Shown here: positions 1,035-25,430 of the stretch, piece after piece
Numbering within the stretch: position 1 is the first letter of the stretch
Layout: every line of letters starts with the position of its first letter
Virus record (IMG/VR): IMGVR_UViG_3300036944_000394
Location: 1-28,157 of that record
Reading direction: 5' to 3' (one strand)
DNA length: 28,157 bases
Source: a virus
Notes under the pieces: model-generated
What the model saw: only the letters and a program-made list of their open reading frames with translations
What the model was told of the DNA's origin: nothing
The model's database searches: none
Position numbers and translations under genes: made by a program

Positions 1035-4000
1035 TACACGATCACCGTAAAGTTAGAGCCAGCCCACCGATCAAGAATTTCAAACGTGCGCCGATTGTAC
1101 ACTTTCTGTTCCTGCATTTCTCGCTTGAGCTGGCCCATTTCTTCTGCGATGCGCCGGTTGTTGATAGTGTCAGTATTTCGCTCTGCGACGCTGGTTACTT
1201 TTTCGCCCCTGTGCAGCATAGCAGGGCCATCGAATGCGACGTAATCCACGCCGTTGGCGAATGAACCATTCAGCGAAATAGAAGGGTTAACTTGAGGAAG
1301 GTTGTTTGACTGCGGCCCCATAGCCCCGACATAGGAATTGTCTGGCGTGTTATTTATCAAGGAATCTCGGATTGATTGCTGGAATGTTGAGACCACTGGA
1401 GTCCAGAAGTCATAGTCAACCGCAGCAGGTTTTGTCACTGCCTGAATTCGAGCAGCACCGCGAGCAATCACTGCATTGATCTCGGACTCCATCAAGCCGG
1501 TGAAATCTGAAATATGTTCAGCAGTAAGCCCGCGCTCGGCGTATTTCTGGAAAGCCTCGTATGCTTTTTCTACAGAGTCCAGCTCAGACAACCCGCTATT
1601 GTACGCCGCCAGCACTGACTCGCTGGCGCTCTTTCTTGCTTGCTCCATGTTGGTCAGTTCAGCAGAGGAAGTTTTTGCAGTCTCCGAAATCTCAGCGACA
1701 GAATCAGTGAGCAGCTTCATCACCTCCTCGGCGCTCCCGGCAGATTGCACAGCTTTCAGCAGCTCGGCATCGAGGCCGGTAATATGGTCCGCAAACTGCG
1801 TCATGTAGAGGTCAGTCATGGCGGCAATGTCAGCGGCAGTCGTCATCCCGCCAGTGCCGAGGAACGTGCCAGAGGTGCCCGCTGTACCTTCTTGACCTAC
1901 CCCTGCAAGCGTTGCCATGCTCAGGTCTACCACACCACCCAACTTCTTTACCAACTCAGCACCAGCAGCATCGAGCTGGCGGAATACCTCAATTTGTGCC
2001 GTGGCCGCTTCTTGAGATGCCCCGCGTGCAATTCCTGTTGCTTGAAAGCCTGAAGCAAACGGATCCACCGCAAATGTGCTGCCCTGCGCCCCTGCGGTCG
2101 GAGCCGTAAGGAATCCTGAGAATGATCGCTGGTAATTATCCGGGTCTTTAAAGAAATCATTCTTGGCGGCATATGCCAGCGCCAGCGCCGCCGCGATTGC
2201 GATTGTAGCCGGGTTTGTGGCAAGTGCAGCGATTGACGCCATCGAGCCAGCGCCCGCAGCAGCCGCCGCAGTAGGTGGCCCCATAGTGCCCGCAGCGATG
2301 CCTGTGGCTGTGCCAGCAGCACCGGCAACAAACTGCCCAGCGCCAGCAGCAGCGCCAGCCAATGTTACGCCTCCAGCACTGCCAGTCGCAGATGATATTA
2401 AACTGCCTGCGGGGTTTGCAGGAGCTGCGCCAAAGGATGGCATGGTAAACCCACTCATCCCACCGCCAGTGAACAAAGTCATCAGCCCGCTTGCGGCCCA
2501 CTCAGCGACCATCCGCTTGACGGTCTTCTCAAACGCTTTTGCGATGTTGTCGAAAGCATTGCCACCATTTTCCATGATGTCAACGAACGCATCAGAGAGG
2601 TATTCGTGAGTGGCTTCCCATGATTTCTTTGCAGCTTCTGCCGCATCCGCTGCGGCTTTGCCAGTGGTGGCGCTGGACTCTGCGAGGTCGTAATTGATCG
2701 CGGTCAATTCGGCAAGTCGCGCTATTTGCTCCGGAGCCGTTCCCTTGCTGTATTCTTCGGTCACAACATTAAAAATTGCCTGCGCCCGAGCCGTCATGCC
2801 CAGTGCAATGTTTTCGTTTTCCAGTGCTACGATTGAATCCTGTACCGCCTGTTCTGCTTTGGCTTGTTCTTCTGTAGCTTGCTTTTGCTCTTTCAAATAC
2901 TCCTTGATTGAGTCATTCCACTGCTTCAGAGAGTCTTTAGCGTCATCTTGAGATTCTTTCAGGTCATAATTTTGTGCAGCCAGAGTCGCAATTTTTGCTA
3001 TAGCATCGGGCGCAGCACCATTAGCCAGAGCTTTCAAGGTGGCATTAAAGATTGCCTGCGCCCGGTCTGTCATTTGCAGCGCGAGCTGTTCGTTTTTCAG
3101 TGCGTCAATTTGAAGCAGGGTTTTTTCGTTAAAATTTTCTATTGCACCTGTACCAGCATCAGTTGCATTACGCGCCGCGATAGCGTCTCTAGCTCTCTGC
3201 GCTGCCTCTTGCCTGCCATTCTCGATCATGCCGGACAGAGCGCCGCCAGCCTCGACATATTCGCGCAGTGATTGCGTTGCCGCATCAATTTTTGCGACAA
3301 CATCGGCAAATTCTTCGCCCGCTAAATGAATCCCGTTTTGAGCAAGGAAAGTCGCAGTCTCTACCTCTTGTGCGGCCTTGTTGTGATCTATGTACGCATC
3401 AACAAGTTTATAAACGGCATAAGATGCGACTACAGCAATGCCTACCCATCCTCCTGCCAATGCTATTGCAGAGGCCAATATTCCAGTCGTTGCTGTAGCT
3501 GATACCGCTACTGCTTCATATCGAGCGAGCGCCGCAGTATGCGCGTTTACAGCAACAGTCGCGGCTACCTCAGCCGATCTAACAGCCCCAAGGCTTGCTG
3601 CGCTACCAAGTGCCCCTGCAACTCTAGCTTGAGAAGATGCAACTTGCGCCGCAGTAGATGCGACGTTTGCAGCAGTAAGATCAATCTCTGCTCTTAGCTG
3701 TAAAATTGTTGCCGTAGTTTGAGCAGCAGTAGCAGCAGTTTTTTCCACCATTGCTATTTTTGCAGCAACCATTGACCCTAGAAAATTTCCAGCATAAAGC
3801 ACCGCCATTGCTTGCGTGACAGTAAGCACTGCGTCGAGATTTTCAGTAAGCATAATCAATGCCGCGCCAGCCGCCTCGGTTGCGCTGGTAACCGCCTCAG
3901 AGGAACCCACAAACTCCAGCGCGTTGTTCTTAGCAATCTGCGTTGCCTGCCCGAACGTCATCATTGACTTGCCGAAGTCCTCGGCAATCGAATCAGACGC

Positions 4001-19917: not shown

Positions 19918-20174
19918 CGCACACCTCTGAAAAAATACTCGGGTGCTTCTGGCGAGTCTGGCCCGTCACAATCCGTCTCAAGCTCATCGAGCGCCTTTTC
20001 GATCAAGCCGTGTATTTCTCTATCCGCCGAGGCGGACAGCATATGCGCTGGCAGCTCCTCGTAAACCTTTCCCTTGCTGTCGAGCACATAGAGGCAAGTC
20101 AAATCCCAATCGCCGTCTGCGTAGGTGTCGATCTCCGCGCCGAGGTCGATGCTGTAGAAAGTGATTTTAATCAT
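19911..20174 (-). CDS. Small acidic protein of 87 aa, function unknown
   Basis: Starts MIKITFYSIDLGAEIDTYAD. It is strongly acidic, above all in DELETDCDGPDSPEAPEYF near the C-terminus, with a beta-like first half (WDLTCLYVLDSKGKVYEE). Many phage host-takeover and DNA-mimic proteins are small and acidic, but nothing here proves such a role. The ATG at 20174 overlaps the stop of a 24-codon membrane peptide gene as ATGA. Confidence 0.5.
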   Translation of the reverse strand: MIKITFYSIDLGAEIDTYADGDWDLTCLYVLDSKGKVYEELPAHMLSASADREIHGLIEKALDELETDCDGPDSPEAPEYFFRGVRC

Positions 20175-20245
20175 GGCAGCACCACCAGTATTCCGATCAG
20201 CACTGCCAGCAGGCAGCAGCCGAGCATTGCGAAGAATTCTTTCAT
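20171..20245 (-). CDS. 24-aa single-pass membrane peptide
   Basis: ATG at 20245 with GAGGTG six bases upstream, overlapping the previous stop as ATGA; its own stop overlaps the next ATG the same way. The peptide starts MKEFFAMLGCCLLAVLIGIL and ends VVLP: a short charged head followed by an unbroken hydrophobic helix long enough to span the membrane. It could be a small inner-membrane regulator or a minimal holin-like protein. No homologue is recognised. Confidence 0.55.
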   Translation of the reverse strand: MKEFFAMLGCCLLAVLIGILVVLP

Positions 20246-20490
20246 GCTGACACCTCGCAAGCTGACAGGTTTTTGGTCAGGCCGACTTGCTGCTTGGCAA
20301 AGTAGCCTACCGAATACTCCTGACGCTTTGCACCAGTGCGGCTGGCGTAGCCGCTTGCGCCATTGCCATCGATGTCGACGATCTCGGTGATGGTTACCCG
20401 CTTGTCGCTGATTTTGTCAGCCTTGGCGGTTATGCTGACACTGCGCCATCCAGCGTTGGTTTTTACTGCTGATTCGTATTTTATAATCAT
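20242..20490 (-). CDS. Small protein of 82 aa, function unknown
   Basis: Starts MIIKYESAVKTNAGWRSVSI at 20490 with CCAAGGA upstream, the same binding site sequence as the gene at 21881. It appears beta-rich and basic (TAKADKISDKRVTITEIVDI), with a Gly-rich middle (GNGASGYASR). No family recognised. It is the first gene of the coupled chain after a 46-bp gap that holds a small GC hairpin. Confidence 0.55.
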   Translation of the reverse strand: MIIKYESAVKTNAGWRSVSITAKADKISDKRVTITEIVDIDGNGASGYASRTGAKRQEYSVGYFAKQQVGLTKNLSACEVSA

Positions 20491-20511
20491 TTTAATTTTC
20501 CTTGGTTGTGT

Positions 20512-20525
20512 GGCCGTCCGTGGCC
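20512..20525 (-). promoter_or_regulatory. Leader hairpin before the RBS at 20490, copy 1
   Basis: GGCC at 20512-20515 can pair with GGCC at 20522-20525 around a six-base loop (ACGGAC on the coding strand). A very similar element with a different stem but almost the same loop precedes the gene at 21881. Both are followed by CCAAGGAAAAT. Confidence 0.35.
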
Positions 20526-20536
20526 GGGGTTGTTGG

Positions 20537-20998
20537 TTATGCGGCTTTCTTTGCTGGCTTGCCGGTCTTTGTCAGCCCGGACTGGTAGATCAGAGCTGCA
20601 TCTAGTTTTTGCTTCAGTTGCTCTGTGTCTCGCGCAGCGGGCAGTTTTCTGCCGACGCTTAGGCTCAATTCGTGACCGGCGAAGCTCAGTCCGATTCCGG
20701 GGATTGTTACGCCGTCAACTATCATGCTGCTGGTGCTTTGTCCGACCACCATTACTTCGCGCCACTTGTTAGGGGATGAGATCGAAGCCCCTGAGGTCCA
20801 GACAAGCATTCCGGCTTTTATCTGCTCTGCCGGTGTTTCCATCGATCTGAAGAAGAACGCGCTTGCCGCTGCTCCGCGCTTGGTGATCGTCACCTTTGCG
20901 CCTCTGCACTTAAAGCACCTTGTTCCGGTCATCATATTGAAGCTGTAGTTTCCAGTTCCGTTGCATCGTGAGCAGGCTTCTGTTTCAAATCTGGACAT
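20537..20998 (-). CDS. Zinc-finger protein with DnaJ-like CxxC pairs, function unknown
   Basis: 153 aa. The N-terminus, EACSRCNGTGNYSFNMMTG then TRCFKCRG, has C9, C12, C28 and C31, a DnaJ-type zinc-binding pattern with CNGTG. The rest is mixed: METPAEQIKAGMLVWTSG, then EVMVVGQSTSSMIVDG and IGLSFAGHELSLSVGRKLP, with a basic Lys/Ala tail. It is the first gene after the promoter/operator at 21043-21071, with a leader of about 38 bases. AAGGG lies upstream of the ATG. Possibly a nucleic-acid-binding protein, but no family is recognised. Confidence 0.65.
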   Translation of the reverse strand: MSRFETEACSRCNGTGNYSFNMMTGTRCFKCRGAKVTITKRGAAASAFFFRSMETPAEQIKAGMLVWTSGASISSPNKWREVMVVGQSTSSMIVDGVTIPGIGLSFAGHELSLSVGRKLPAARDTEQLKQKLDAALIYQSGLTKTGKPAKKAA

Positions 20999-21042
20999 TT
21001 TGGCTTTCCCTTTTGTCTCCGCTTAATTGCGGCCATGTGTGT

Positions 21043-21071
21043 ACAATAGCCCAACTGTTTTACATTGTAAA
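21043..21071 (-). promoter_or_regulatory. Leftward promoter with operator TTTACATTGTAAA
   Basis: The coding strand has -35 TTTACA (21066-21071), a 17-base spacer and -10 TATTGT (21043-21048), with transcription starting near 21036, before the gene at 20998. A perfect 6-1-6 inverted repeat (21059-21071) covers the -35 box. The 29 bases 21053-21081 match 22153-22181 at 27 positions. It lies right after the stop of the HTH gene. Confidence 0.65.
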
Positions 21072-21074
21072 CAA

Positions 21075-21263
21075 CTATTTTGCACTATCTTGATCTTTTT
21101 TAGCGAAGCACCCCAGAATGACCACCCCGAACAGCTCGGCCTTGTTCTTGTGCCAGTTCGTCAGGGTTTGGCGGCTGACGCCGGTCATGCGGGAAACGTC
21201 CGCCAGACTTTTGACGCCTGACGTTTTCGCCCATGCTGATGCTGTGCTTTTATCAATTCTCAT
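21075..21263 (-). CDS. Small HTH DNA-binding protein (Cro-like)
   Basis: 62 aa. Residues 18-40 form a helix-turn-helix: SLADVSRMTGVSRQTLTNWH, a pattern seen in small phage regulators and plasmid-type HTH proteins. There is little outside the DNA-binding domain, and the C-terminus is a short basic tail. The gene ends four bases from the operator at 21059-21071, so it could act there, although the HTH protein encoded at 24657 is the other candidate. The ATG overlaps the preceding stop as ATGA. Confidence 0.7.
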   Translation of the reverse strand: MRIDKSTASAWAKTSGVKSLADVSRMTGVSRQTLTNWHKNKAELFGVVILGCFAKKDQDSAK

Positions 21264-21469
21264 AAATTTGCTCCGAGTCCGTTAATCACAAAAACTTCCA
21301 CATCCACCGCCGCCGGGAGAATTCCCGACACCGCCAACCCATCTGGACCGTACAGCATCCAGCCCCGCACCGTGTTCTTGAGCGTGTAGACCTTGCCGCC
21401 TGCTACAATCTCCTGCCCGTCTGCGACGTGCCCCTTCATCGCCGTGAAGCCCTGCGCTGTTGTTCTCAT
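21260..21469 (-). CDS. Small protein of 69 aa, function unknown
   Basis: Starts MRTTAQGFTAMKGHVADGQE at 21469 (GAGAGGG eight bases upstream, ATGA overlap). An ATG two codons earlier is too close to the binding site. The sequence is Gly- and Val-rich with GGKVYTLKNTVRGWMLYGPD, likely a small beta protein (SH3-like by impression). No family recognised. Adjacent to the HTH gene in the same unit. Confidence 0.5.
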   Translation of the reverse strand: MRTTAQGFTAMKGHVADGQEIVAGGKVYTLKNTVRGWMLYGPDGLAVSGILPAAVDVEVFVINGLGANL

Positions 21470-21669
21470 CCCCATACCCTCTCGATCTCCTCGATGCAGA
21501 TTCGCACCATGTCCTCTGTCGGCGTGGTCGGCGGGTTTGCGAACACCGACGCGATGCCGTCCGTGTCAACCCCGTAAAACCAGACATAGCCATCTTGCCG
21601 GATGGCCTCTATGTCGAGCTTTGGGAATCGCTTCCTGATCGCTTTGTTGACTTGCGCCATGTTTGCCAT
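21466..21669 (-). CDS. Small protein of 67 aa, function unknown
   Basis: Starts MANMAQVNKAIRKRFPKLDI at 21669, sharing one base with the previous stop (TAATG), with AAGG upstream. The longer frame to 21807 is rejected because its first 46 residues overlap another gene. It continues EAIRQDGYVWFYGVDTDGIA and has an acidic C-terminal helix. Similar short proteins occur in phage early regions, but I cannot name a family. Confidence 0.55.
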   Translation of the reverse strand: MANMAQVNKAIRKRFPKLDIEAIRQDGYVWFYGVDTDGIASVFANPPTTPTEDMVRICIEEIERVWG

Positions 21670-21881
21670 TATGGACAAACCTTGACCACAAAATAGCCTT
21701 CGACGTTCTGACCGATCAGGTGCTGCTTCAGCCACTTCTTCGCGTTCGTCAGAGTCATGCTGTACGGGGCGAAAATCTCGGTGCTGTGCCCTTCTTGGAA
21801 AGCCCAAGACCCGAAGCCTTTCGGCTTGCGGCCGTGGTTAAATTCGTATGAGGTGGTGCTGAATTCGAGTTGTAGTGACAT
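21669..21881 (-). CDS. Small protein of 70 aa, function unknown
   Basis: Starts MSLQLEFSTTSYEFNHGRKP at 21881. The site CCAAGGA is eight bases from this ATG but only three from the in-frame ATG at 21887, so the later start is chosen. The next part, KGFGSWAFQE and TEIFAPYSMTLTNAKKWLKQ, suggests a compact alpha/beta protein. Its ribosome binding site is perfectly complementary over 13 bases to the predicted small RNA from 22233. Confidence 0.55.
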   Translation of the reverse strand: MSLQLEFSTTSYEFNHGRKPKGFGSWAFQEGHSTEIFAPYSMTLTNAKKWLKQHLIGQNVEGYFVVKVCP

Positions 21882-21899
21882 TTTCATTTTCCTTGGTTT

Positions 21900-21913
21900 C
21901 GCCGTCCTTGGCG
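21900..21913 (-). promoter_or_regulatory. Leader hairpin before the RBS at 21881, copy 2
   Basis: CGCC (21900-21903) pairs with GGCG (21910-21913) around a loop AAGGAC on the coding strand. Compared with the copy at 20512-20525, the stem bases change together while the loop stays nearly the same, and both precede CCAAGGAAAAT. Confidence 0.35.
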
Positions 21914-21923
21914 GTGGTTGTGG

Positions 21924-22100
21924 TCACATTCCGTGCTTTGCCATGTAGTTAGACGCAGACTTCTCAGCCGCTGCAAGCGACTTAAAGTGACGCGCGAAAC
22001 CATGAATCACATTTTCTTGGCCGTCGCGGTCTATGCGAACAATCAGGGCGTAGACGCTGCCGTCTGAATACTTGTTGAATCGTGGCTGGTGATTGCTCAT
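21924..22100 (-). CDS. Small protein of 58 aa, function unknown
   Basis: Starts MSNHQPRFNKYSDGSVYALI at 22100 with AAGGGGAT upstream. The longer frame to 22178 would begin upstream of the predicted transcription start and is rejected. The rest, VRIDRDGQENVIHGFARHFK then SLAAAEKSASNYMAKHGM, looks like a small beta-alpha fold as in phage DUF-type proteins. It is the first gene of the unit driven by the promoter at 22143-22171. Confidence 0.55.
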   Translation of the reverse strand: MSNHQPRFNKYSDGSVYALIVRIDRDGQENVIHGFARHFKSLAAAEKSASNYMAKHGM

Positions 22101-22142
22101 TTTCTTATCCCCTTTGACCCGCTTCATTGCTGGCATGGGAGT

Positions 22143-22171
22143 AATATAATCAAACTGTTTTACCTTGTAAA
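22143..22171 (-). promoter_or_regulatory. Leftward promoter with operator TTTACCTTGTAAA
   Basis: The coding strand has -35 TTTACA (22166-22171), a 17-base spacer and -10 TATATT (22143-22148); the start lies near 22136, about 36 bases before the ATG at 22100. The operator (22159-22171) has one mismatch from perfect symmetry. The block 22153-22181 is a near copy of 21053-21081. Confidence 0.7.
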
Positions 22172-22197
22172 CAACCATTTTACCTTTTTCATAATTA

Positions 22198-22226
22198 TTG
22201 TAAGTGATTGATTTCTATATTAAAAT
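22198..22226 (+). promoter_or_regulatory. Predicted rightward promoter for a small RNA
   Basis: TTGTAA (22198-22203), a 17-base spacer and TAAAAT (22221-22226) give 4/6 and 5/6 matches to sigma-70 boxes. The region is AT-rich, so chance is a concern, but a strong rightward terminator follows about 60 bases downstream and no rightward gene lies between. Confidence 0.4.
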
Positions 22227-22232
22227 TAACCG

Positions 22233-22293
22233 TCATTTTCCTTGGCCTTCTGGCTCCTGCCCCTGCCGCACATATGCCGCAGGGGTTTTTTTT
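22233..22293 (+). ncRNA. Candidate small RNA (about 60 nt)
   Basis: Bounded by the predicted promoter at 22198-22226 and the intrinsic terminator at 22260-22293. The 5' part (22233-22245, tcattttccttgg) is perfectly complementary over 13 bases to the ribosome binding site of the mRNA for the gene at 21881, and over 11 bases to that at 20490. It could therefore repress both. The alternative is that this is a dead copy of the same leader sequence and the match reflects common origin only. Confidence 0.35.
22260..22293 (+). terminator. Intrinsic terminator, rightward
   Basis: CCCCTGC (22260-22266) pairs with GCAGGGG (22279-22285), with three further pairs (GCA/TGC) inside, followed directly by eight T residues on the plus strand. 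The orientation is rightward, opposite to all annotated genes nearby. It would end a short rightward transcript and prevent antisense reading into the primase gene. Confidence 0.85.
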
Positions 22294-22331
22294 GCCTCCC
22301 ATTATCATACTTACGCCCGACAGCATCGGCA

Positions 22332-22457
22332 GGGGTACAAAGGTACACCCCTATAGGGGTGTGTACCCTTTTGTACCCCATAAACCGGCTTTTTGCCCCC
22401 TTTTTGGGTACAGGTACAAAAAGTCGTTTGTACCCCTCTGTACCCTTTTGTACCCCC
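22332..22457. repeat. GTAC inverted-repeat array (possible replication origin)
   Basis: Nine GTAC tetramers lie in about 120 bp, arranged as GGGGTACAAA/TTTGTACCCC and TGTACCC units. Two large imperfect hairpins result: 22332-22379, centred on CTATAG, and 22406-22445, with loop AAGTCG. The array lies directly after the primase-helicase gene and is not credibly coding; the only frame across it begins with TTG and runs through the terminator. Iteron-like origin, or a set of protein-binding sites, is the best guess. Confidence 0.6.
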
Positions 22458-22459
22458 AA

Positions 22460-24472
22460 CTATTTGCCATTTTTTCTCATCATCATCGCGCTGGATTGAG
22501 CATCATCAATAACAATCCATCCGTGCTCATGGGCGGCGATTACCTCGCTGATAAGCAAGTCTGCTACCGGCCTGCCAGCCTGTGACGGCTTCGCATAAAG
22601 TTTGGCACTGGCTTCCTTCACGCCGAGATTGTTGACGACGTACTCAATAAAGCCGCTGCGAGAAAGATATGGCCGCTCCTCTCTTTCCTCCGCGCCAGAG
22701 GCCCACCAAGCCGACTCGAACAACTTGCGGTGCTTGGATAGCTTATCTATCTTCTCAGCCTTCGCGGGCGCTTCAGCGGCGACCACGACCGCGCTCGTCA
22801 CCTGCTCGCCGTCCTCATCGAGCCAGCCCGTGACCGGGACCGACTTCAGGTGGACATAGAGCGGCATCGCCATTTCAGCGTCCTTGCTCTTTCGCTGGAT
22901 AATCTCAATCGGGGCGTCCTCGCTCTTGGGCGGCACCACGCTGATCTCGATGTCCAGTGCCCCGCGCCATGCAGAGCTGCCCCGCGCCCGGTGCTGGACC
23001 TCCTCGCTCACGCCGGTGTGATGCACCAGCAGGACTGAGCAGGCGAACTCACTCATCAGGCTGCCGCAGGCGTCGAGCATCGTCTTTGCGTCCTGTGCGG
23101 AATTCTCGTCACCAAGCAGGAAGCGGTGCAGGGTGTCGACGATAATAATGCTCGGAGCTATCGACCCGCCTCTTATCGCGTCCCGCACTCTCTGATACCC
23201 GGCAGGCGTGTTCAGGTCGCACCCGTCTTTGCTCAGATACATATCGAGAGCGCCCGCACTGTGATGCTGCTTCCACGCTGCTATCCTCCCGCGCAAGCCG
23301 TGATGGCCTTCCCCGGCAAGATAGACCACCGTGCCGGTCTTGACCCGGTTGCCGTGCCATGTGTCAAAGCCCGCCGCGATGTTGAGGCACATATCGAGCA
23401 CCACGAAAGTCTTGCCCCCGCCAGACGGCCCGTGGACCATAATCAGCGCGTCCTGCTGTAGCCAGTGCTTGACCAGCCAGCCGATAGGAGCGGGCTGAGC
23501 GCAGAAAGAATCGGCGTGTATGAGCCAGCCGTCGGTTTTCGGCAGCAGCAGCCCGATCAGGTCATGCCCGGCTTGTGCGTAGTCGTTCGCATCACCCGGC
23601 AGGGGCGGCATGATTACCCTCGCGCCGTACTTCGCCGCTGCTTGCTCGGCGTATCTCATGCCGACGCCTGACTCATCATTGTCGGCCACGATCACCAGAT
23701 CGGCATGGGTGCGCCGGATGATCTCAGCCACGGGCACAAGGTTGCTCGCACTATAAGAGACGAACACGGGAGCGCCGGTCACTTCGTGAATCGTCGCAGC
23801 GGTCGCAAAGCCCTCAGCCAGATAGACCGTCTGTGCCCCGTCGATGACGCCGACGCTCCAGAAGCGCGAGCCGGTCGCGCCGCCTTGATGGTACTTCTTA
23901 TCTCCGTCTGCGCTGATGTATTGCAGGGAGGATAGCTGGCCGTCCTCGTCGTATAGAGGCACGATCAGCCGCCCGTCGCCGGTTACTCTCGCCCCGTGGG
24001 GCTGGACCCCTTTGCGAGAAAGGTACGGATGGTCGGCACTGGCCGCGCCTGCGTTGCTCCAGATTTCTGTCACCGTGTCCGCTGCCACTTCCCTCGACCG
24101 CGCCTGCTCCTCATCCCGCGCCTTTCGCGCCTCTGCCATGCGGCGACTGTTCGCCATCTCCTCTGCGACAGTCAGCTTCCTGCCAATGTCCGCTTTGAAC
24201 GGGTGCTCCAGCCCCAGCCGCCAGCAACCGAAGTGCCCCGCCGGGACGCCATCGAGGAAGCCGATATAAAAGCCGCTTTTGTCCTGCCCGCCTCGGCCTT
24301 TGGTGCCAGTGCGGAAGCGGTGAATTTTGCCATCGAATACGATATGGTCAGGCGCTTCAAGGCCCGCCGCGATCATCGCGTCGCGCATCTGCAATTCTGG
24401 CGGCGTCACTATTATTGTCTGCGCTGCCGGTGGCGACCACGGCCCGCCGAGGATGTTAGTCAAATCTGCCAT
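22460..24472 (-). CDS. Primase-helicase (TOPRIM plus RecA-fold)
   Basis: 670 aa. An N-terminal primase-like region (about 30-205) has KSGFYIGFLDGVPAGHFGCW. The TOPRIM domain has YLAEGFATAATIHEVTG with E220 and VIVADNDESGVG with D264/D266. Then comes a RecA/RepA-like helicase with Walker A GPSGGGKT (348-355), Walker B SIIIVDT (441-447) and VHHTG (483-487). It would unwind and prime phage DNA at the fork. No Cys4 zinc finger is visible at the N-terminus. The ATG shares a base with the HTH-gene stop (TAATG). The C-terminal 110 residues resemble a winged helix and may bind the repeat array next door. Confidence 0.88.
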   Translation of the reverse strand: MADLTNILGGPWSPPAAQTIIVTPPELQMRDAMIAAGLEAPDHIVFDGKIHRFRTGTKGRGGQDKSGFYIGFLDGVPAGHFGCWRLGLEHPFKADIGRKLTVAEEMANSRRMAEARKARDEEQARSREVAADTVTEIWSNAGAASADHPYLSRKGVQPHGARVTGDGRLIVPLYDEDGQLSSLQYISADGDKKYHQGGATGSRFWSVGVIDGAQTVYLAEGFATAATIHEVTGAPVFVSYSASNLVPVAEIIRRTHADLVIVADNDESGVGMRYAEQAAAKYGARVIMPPLPGDANDYAQAGHDLIGLLLPKTDGWLIHADSFCAQPAPIGWLVKHWLQQDALIMVHGPSGGGKTFVVLDMCLNIAAGFDTWHGNRVKTGTVVYLAGEGHHGLRGRIAAWKQHHSAGALDMYLSKDGCDLNTPAGYQRVRDAIRGGSIAPSIIIVDTLHRFLLGDENSAQDAKTMLDACGSLMSEFACSVLLVHHTGVSEEVQHRARGSSAWRGALDIEISVVPPKSEDAPIEIIQRKSKDAEMAMPLYVHLKSVPVTGWLDEDGEQVTSAVVVAAEAPAKAEKIDKLSKHRKLFESAWWASGAEEREERPYLSRSGFIEYVVNNLGVKEASAKLYAKPSQAGRPVADLLISEVIAAHEHGWIVIDDAQSSAMMMRKNGK

Positions 24473-24657
24473 TATTGTGCTGCCCCTTGGAAGTAGGCGG
24501 TCAGCCGCCGCATGGTCTCGAACGTCGGGTTTTTCTTCTCGCCGTCCCGAATTGCCAGCAGCGTGTTGTAGTGTAGCCGCGCCCCATCTGCCACGACAGC
24601 CAGCCGCCTATCCGCCAGCTTTTCCCGTATTTCGTCTAACTGCATGATTTCATTCAT
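24472..24657 (-). CDS. Cro-like HTH repressor
   Basis: 61 aa starting MNEIMQLDEIREKLADRRLA. The HTH covers LAVVADGARLHYNTLLAIRD (about 19-38), followed by GEKKNPTFETMRRLTAYF, a typical XRE-family end. The size and lack of a dimerisation or cleavage domain fit Cro-type proteins. AAGGAA lies before the ATG at 24657; the longer frame to 24861 overlaps the operator and the rightward gene and is rejected. It is the first leftward gene after the divergent operators, so autoregulation is likely. Confidence 0.8.
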   Translation of the reverse strand: MNEIMQLDEIREKLADRRLAVVADGARLHYNTLLAIRDGEKKNPTFETMRRLTAYFQGAAQ

Positions 24658-24682
24658 ATTTATAAATTCCTTCGAAAGTGTG

Positions 24683-24711
24683 TTTACATAGTAATATAAA
24701 TTAGTTATATT
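24683..24711 (+). promoter_or_regulatory. Rightward early promoter with operator
   Basis: TTTACA (24683-24688), a 17-base spacer and TATATT (24706-24711). The start would lie near 24718, 44 bases before the ATG at 24762. A TTTACA-type operator, degenerate on one side (24683-24695), covers the -35 box. Confidence 0.7.
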
Positions 24712-24716
24712 GTAAA
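24688..24716 (-). promoter_or_regulatory. Leftward early promoter with operator
   Basis: On the minus strand TTTACA (24711-24716), a 17-base spacer and TACTAT (24688-24693). It overlaps the rightward promoter face to face. Its operator (24704-24716) is centred 21 bp, two helical turns, from the other, which would let two dimers cooperate. It would serve the HTH and primase genes. Confidence 0.6.
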
Positions 24717-24761
24717 CCACATCGCAACCGGATAGGCCGAACGCGATGACAAGGAGACACA

Positions 24762-25430
24762 ATGGCAATACAACTGAAGAACACGGCCCAAGTTGCCGTG
24801 AATGGCTTGAAAGTGCTGGTCTACGGTCATGCCGGGGCAGGCAAGACAACGCTGGCGGCAAGTATGCCAGCGCCGATTATCATCTCAGCAGAAGGCGGCT
24901 TGCTGTCTATAAAAGATGCAGGCCTCGACTACATCGAGGTCAACTCGATGGATAGTCTGATGGAAGCCTTTGAGTATGTCGTTGCAAGCGGTGAAAAGTA
25001 CGCATCGGTCGTGCTCGACAGCATCAGCGAGATAGGCGAGGTGGTCTTGATTCACGAGAAGCGAATCAACAAAGATGGACGCGCGGCATACGGGGAAATG
25101 GCGGTCCAGATGACGTCCATCATCCGGGCATTCCGCGACCTTGCTGGCAAGCACGTTCTGATGACAGCAAAAGTGGAAAAGTCTCAGGATGAATCCGGGC
25201 GGATCCTCTACGCTCCGTCGATGCCGGGTGCAAAGGTCGGGCAGCAACTACCTTACTTCTTTGACGAAGTGCTGGCCCTGCGCGTAGAAAAGGACGCCGA
25301 AGGAATTGCACAGCGAGCAATCATGTGCGACAGCGACGGCCTCTGGCTGGCGAAAGACCGCAGCGGAAAGCTCGACGCATGGGAAGCACCTGATATGGGC
25401 GCAATCATCGCCAAGATTGGTGGCGTATGA
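24762..25430 (+). CDS. RecA-fold ATPase, Sak4-like recombinase
   Basis: 222 aa. Walker A GHAGAGKT (22-29), then APIIISAEGG, Walker B SVVLDSISE (82-90), and KHVLMTAKVEKSQDE as a sensor region: the pattern of phage AAA_24/Sak4 single-domain RecA-like proteins that promote strand annealing with an SSB partner. The next genes (DUF669-like, nuclease, helicase) are the usual companions. AAGGAG lies six bases before the ATG. First gene of the rightward operon. Confidence 0.85.
   Translation: MAIQLKNTAQVAVNGLKVLVYGHAGAGKTTLAASMPAPIIISAEGGLLSIKDAGLDYIEVNSMDSLMEAFEYVVASGEKYASVVLDSISEIGEVVLIHEKRINKDGRAAYGEMAVQMTSIIRAFRDLAGKHVLMTAKVEKSQDESGRILYAPSMPGAKVGQQLPYFFDEVLALRVEKDAEGIAQRAIMCDSDGLWLAKDRSGKLDAWEAPDMGAIIAKIGGV

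Follow-up and report, generated by a model that had tools for sequence, protein, structure and literature searches.

A predicted phage small RNA complementary to leaders of the phage's own early genes

The promoter-terminator unit and its surroundings

The window, that is, the whole 28,157-base stretch of virus record IMGVR_UViG_3300036944_000394 that was analysed, carries structural and early genes leftward and recombination genes rightward. A 61-aa regulator and a TOPRIM/AAA primase-helicase are encoded leftward at 22460-24657, and a noncoding stretch separates the primase from the leftward early genes. The left part of this stretch holds the candidate small-RNA unit. The right part (22336-22456) is an origin candidate, which is rich in repeats and starts about 40 bp past the small-RNA terminator, the latter facing the antisense of the primase.

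The layout of the origin candidate directly after the primase-helicase gene is constant, comprising direct repeats, inverted copies, and a long hairpin with a CTTTAG/CTATAG-like centre, and it also follows the primase-helicase gene in the relatives' contigs L004-L041, L118, and L119. Its repeat word varies among phages (GGTACA, GGTAAC, GGAAC, GAAACA, GGGACA, and GGTTCA), and a DnaA-box-like TTATCCACA adjoins the repeat-rich element in several relatives. The element looks like a replication origin whose iterons vary by phage. Contigs L086, L084, and L003 all terminate within the origin/small-RNA stretch, whose hairpins and repeats may interrupt assembly.

The unit begins with a sigma-70-like promoter on the + strand at 22198-22226 (−35 box TTGTAA at 22198-22203, 17-nt spacer, and −10 box TAAAAT at 22221-22226) and ends with an intrinsic terminator at 22259-22293 (stem-loop at 22259-22286, T8 at 22286-22293). 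Both elements had been proposed in an earlier, sequence-only reading of this DNA, and the sequence and the promoter scan bear them out base for base. The stem escapes a simple terminator scan owing to a single internal mismatch. The predicted RNA is about 61 nt long (22233-22293, + strand), with some 26 nt preceding the terminator stem. Its start is placed from the −10 box and is a prediction, since further promoter-like hits overlap the unit at 22168-22195 on the + strand and at 22223-22194 on the − strand. As in trans-acting small RNAs, an own promoter and an intrinsic terminator enclose 50-200 nt without an open reading frame on the same strand. When both strands were scanned, a promoter followed 35-110 nt on by a U-tract terminator was found at this single place in the window, and a pair with such spacing arises in only 2 of 200 resampled sequences.

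For the 62-nt RNA, the predicted folding energy is −24.8 kcal/mol, compared with −15.0 kcal/mol for shuffles (z −3.9), and none of 200 shuffles was as stable. The fold leaves the first 12 nt open, giving an unpaired 5′ seed at 22233-22245 that is followed by a small hairpin (GGCC-UUCU-GGCU, 22244-22255) and the terminator, whose U8 tail is compatible with the use of Hfq. A strong fold with 12 open nt at the 5′ end is predicted for all five of the sequences compared. A covariance-model search of 20000-25000 against Rfam gave no match at E values up to 1.

An operator-like array at 22158-22189, a repeat of 21053-21081, lies between the small-RNA promoter and a leftward early promoter detected by the scan (TTTACA-17-TATATT, 22143-22171, − strand). 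Three copies of an operator-like TTTACAnnGTAAAC element are present in the window (21053-21081, 22153-22181, and 24683-24720), overlapping leftward promoters as well as a divergent promoter that adjoins the regulator gene. The candidate operator binder is the 61-aa transcriptional regulator itself (24472-24657, − strand; phrog_18104, E 2.7e-7). Because the array ends 8 bp upstream of the small-RNA −35 box and its half-site ATTTTACCTTTTT is kept in the distant relative L085, control of the small-RNA promoter by this regulator, whether positive or negative, is plausible, the link between operator and promoter being only positional.

Conservation in related phages

Relatives were collected by a primase search and by DNA pattern scans, and five contigs carry the unit: L086, L083 (G001), L087 (G004), L085, and L084. 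L086 represents the window's own virus (100% identity over 14.7 kb), G001 and G004 are different phages that are 87-89% identical around the unit (DNA identity among the window, G001, and G004 is about 86-89%), and identity drops to 76-79% in the more distant L085 and L084. Across promoter plus RNA (103 bp), there is one difference from the window in G001 and four in G004, while the neighbouring sequence diverges more, by 14% in the primase coding sequence and by 14-19% in the 42 bp 3′ of the terminator. If the unit changed at the coding rate, so few differences would have a binomial probability of 2e-6 in G001 and 5e-4 in G004. The promoter is identical at 29 of 29 positions in both, and the 5′ part of the RNA is 99-96% conserved among the three phages.

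The two distant relatives, L085 and L084, have an altered seed and an altered stretch behind it, with a gain of about 21 nt. Both keep the terminator and a −10 box (TACAAT) in register. L085, in an altered neighbourhood, additionally has a −35 box (TTGAAA), at most one base off its place in the window; the −35 position of L084 is not visible because the contig stops at its −10 box. Retention of the promoter and terminator in relatives whose antisense stretch differs lends the small-RNA gene good support, and, judging from these features, the gene is probably real. Within the terminator stem, the relatives show a compensatory C-G to A-U change and two wobble changes; the covariation score, which rests on five sequences, was reached by 52 of 500 shuffles and is supportive, not decisive.

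The sequence-only reading had pointed to conservation of the promoter and terminator as informative, and both are indeed present in G001, G004, and L085, with the −10 box and terminator in L084. It had also raised the objection that any leader copy read backwards looks antisense, an objection answered by the retention of promoter and terminator despite an altered antisense stretch. Relatives that keep the leader copy and lose the promoter and terminator would, by its account, have spoken against a small RNA; the reverse was seen, the leader copy being gone from L085 and L084 and the transcription unit retained.

The known distribution is narrow, being limited to the window and five contigs, one of which is the window's own virus. 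A near-identity search among annotated phages gave no match, and a search of the genome collection gave two distant primase relatives and nothing else. Patterns for the terminator, seed, and promoter flank recovered across IMG/VR the same five contigs only, plus chance matches. Contigs L101-L103 carry orthologues of an 82-aa early gene described below, with no detectable copy of the small RNA in the fetched DNA. No such unit was seen by eye after the primase genes of Salicola phage CGphi29 and Alteromonas phage XX1924, and the sequence after the primase differs in most other fetched primase relatives.

Complementarity to early-gene leaders

Some early genes of the window share a start-associated leader, AGGAAAATnAAAATG, often CCAAGGAAAAT, and the early-gene junctions of these phages repeat a module: after the stop codon come a GGCC-type hairpin whose loop is ANGGAN, a short spacer, a ribosome-binding site of the AGGA type, and the start codon. 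On the mRNAs, the hairpin reads CGCC-AAGGAC-GGCG upstream of the gene starting at 21881 (21900-21913, − strand) and GGCC-ACGGAC-GGCC upstream of the 82-aa gene starting at 20490 (20512-20525, − strand). The hairpin-plus-site module (GGCC-ANGGAN-GGCC, then an AGGA-type site) occurs at 20490-20535 and 21881-21920 of the window and in contigs L100-L104, with up to six copies within one short contig of this set. A subset of the leaders reads CCAAGGAAAATnAAAATG, and the 5′ end of the RNA is the antisense of that subset. In addition, UCCUUGGCC of the RNA matches the 5′ arm and loop of hairpins having GGCCAAGGA.

The seed at 22233-22245 (TCATTTTCCTTGG) equals the + strand at 21884-21896, which gives it 13 nt of complementarity to the leader of the leftward gene at 21881; likewise, 22235-22245 equals 20495-20505, giving 11 complementary nt in the leader of the gene at 20490 (both leaders on the − strand). 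These lengths agree exactly with those of the sequence-only reading, and duplex prediction for the two mRNAs, which it had suggested, gave cofolding gains of −19.1 kcal/mol for the gene at 21881 and −14.3 kcal/mol for that at 20490. The target sites are predicted to be open, with opening costs of 0.6 and 1.4 kcal/mol against cofolding gains of 14-19 kcal/mol. The bare word CATTTTCCTTGG is not rare at up to two mismatches (5 found, 3.0 expected); the long matches fall precisely at ribosome-binding sites.

In each of the three closest phages, two of its own leaders are complementary to the seed over 10-13 contiguous nt: those of the genes at 21881 (13) and 20490 (11) in the window, at 3293 (11) and 4471 (11) in G001, and at 2919 (10) and 2669 (10) in G004. 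The 82-aa gene (20490 in the window, 4471 in G001, and 2919 in G004) is matched in all three. The second matched gene varies among phages, and the G004 orthologue of the gene at 21881 bears another leader.

C/U-rich seeds of any kind pair somewhat with Shine-Dalgarno (SD) sequences, and the gene-start sets used for statistics are approximate because they were called by a simple script. The mean of the best two duplexes with own ribosome-binding sites was reached by 2, 0, and 6 of 300 dinucleotide-shuffled seeds in the window, G001, and G004, respectively. With the anti-SD core held fixed, the mean of the best three was reached by 7, 12, and 16 of 1000 seeds with shuffled flanks and by 2, 4, and 44 of 1000 with random flanks. 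In L085, where only five gene starts were available, the fixed-core test was not significant (best site reached by 272 of 1000), nor was a joint change of seed and own leaders. A predicted single-stranded seed complementary to sites near gene starts is found in the window, G001, and G004 and is not significant in L085; of the small-RNA interpretation in the sequence-only reading, the transcription unit is well supported, and the pairing with early ribosome-binding sites holds statistically in three phages and not in the fourth. The changed seed of L005/L085 matches GGAAATAAGG within the start of its own regulator gene (L005 1325-1348), which is the best non-self site of the contig.

Interpretation and comparison with known systems

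With the promoter, terminator, predicted fold, conservation, and complementarity all evident in the sequence, the unit is best read as encoding a trans-acting, Hfq-type phage small RNA that represses the phage's own early genes sharing the repeated start-associated leader, a reading that we hold to be somewhat favoured. We infer the transcription, Hfq use, and translational repression of such an RNA as follows. Rightward transcription would start at the sigma-70 promoter beside the early operator and stop at the U8 terminator just short of the presumed replication origin. The unstructured 5′ end would pair with the SD sequence and spacer of leftward early genes sharing the AGGAAAATnAAAATG leader, and Hfq would use the 3′ stem and U tail. 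Since the exposed 5′ end is antisense to a shared ribosome-binding leader, the RNA probably lowers translation of those genes, seed pairing blocking ribosome binding. It is also possible, as a more tentative proposal, that the early genes carry interchangeable leader cassettes whose antisense is held by a dedicated small RNA, forming a post-transcriptional regulon. If so, any gene gaining the cassette would fall under control of the small RNA.

Other explanations have to be weighed against this one. A real small RNA might have host mRNAs or host small RNAs as its main partners, as is reported for VpdS and PreS, the match to phage leaders being a by-product of an anti-SD-like seed. The host is the target of most studied trans-acting phage small RNAs (PMC12197685), and the seed is altered in L085 and L084 without a significant matching change in their own leaders; however, the match sits on the phage's own gene starts and, in three phages, extends past the anti-SD core to a greater degree than with shuffled flanks, so that we consider host partnership rather unlikely as the main role. 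Alternatively, the unit might serve DNA or transcription rather than base pairing: the terminator could shield the origin and primase gene from rightward transcription, or the origin could be where the short transcript acts. This would suit a terminator lying about 40 bp short of the origin candidate and facing the primase antisense, and also the pattern in L085 and L084, where the −10 box and terminator are kept and the seed is not. Such a role appears less probable still, as insulation would need no promoter, and the conserved 5′ part of the RNA (99-96% among window, G001, and G004) and the match to own leaders would be left unexplained.

Read on the − strand, the unit gives a small hairpin followed by CCAAGGAAAATG and 13 codons (22236 to 22195), and CCAAGGAAAATG also precedes two genes, so a leftward leader copy or leader-peptide frame that is antisense by chance of strand was considered. 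This is highly improbable: the U tract functions rightward only, the frame coincides with the −10 and −35 boxes, and L085 and L084 lose leader and frame yet keep the −10 box and the rightward terminator, L085 also keeping the −35 box. The mini-ORF was rejected because of its loss in these two contigs. Equally little credence is given to the absence of any transcript, with promoter and terminator arising by chance in AT-rich intergenic DNA; promoter-like words are common, but the promoter-terminator pair is both conserved and rare.

The favoured reading, a small RNA acting on the phage's own early leaders, can be set beside several known systems. RybB-type bacterial small RNAs depend on Hfq and have their own promoter, an open 5′-terminal seed that pairs at ribosome-binding sites, and a terminator stem with a U tail. 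The predicted RNA resembles them in promoter, seed, terminator, and pairing site, whereas it is phage-encoded, is aimed at a leader repeated in the phage's own operon, and has no sequence relation to them. OOP RNA of lambda lies near the replication region, as the predicted RNA does. OOP and the sar RNA of P22 are short, terminator-ended phage antisense RNAs encoded opposite their target (PMC12197685). The predicted RNA is likewise short, terminator-ended, and antisense, but its targets are on other genes, at distances of 350 and 1,740 bp, the matched leaders (20495-20505 and 21884-21896) not being opposite 22233-22293. VpdS of VP882 and PreS of lambda are trans-acting phage RNAs that are reported to bind Hfq and to have targets including host RNAs (PMC12197685). 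The predicted RNA would similarly act in trans from a phage genome, and no sequence relation to either was found. A small RNA directed against the phage's own repeated early leader would be a compact means of turning down a gene set together, and it would differ from the known trans-acting phage small RNAs, which mostly rewire the host.

In cluster K mycobacteriophages, start-associated sequences (SAS/ESAS) recur at the ribosome-binding sites of non-structural genes, an inverted repeat lying upstream of some of them, and a single inverted SAS copy lies elsewhere; whether RNA or protein reads the motif was left open by the authors (PMC3203893). The leaders in the window resemble the SAS in arrangement only, as sequence, host, and phage are unrelated: the 13-bp GGGATAGGAGCCC consensus of the SAS is absent from their gene starts, which read AGGAAAATnAAAATG with a GGCC-type hairpin. 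Here, unlike in cluster K, the inverted leader copy lies in a promoter-terminator unit. In Mycobacterium phage Anaya (33640-34001), the single inverted SAS lies in a noncoding region that is similar across 177 mycobacteriophage records and has TTTTAGACT as a conserved upstream word. Anaya shares the inverted copy itself with Stinson, SamuelLPlaqson, and Nikao; Ekdilam and Bryler have an altered version, and KiSi, ShedlockHolmes, and TribleTrouble lack it. By analogy, this copy may be a counterpart of the leader-antisense small RNA. Such a counterpart could answer what reads start-associated sequences, and a small RNA acting on a leader repeated in the phage's own early operon would give these repeats, unexplained in mycobacteriophages since 2011, a function that can be tested.
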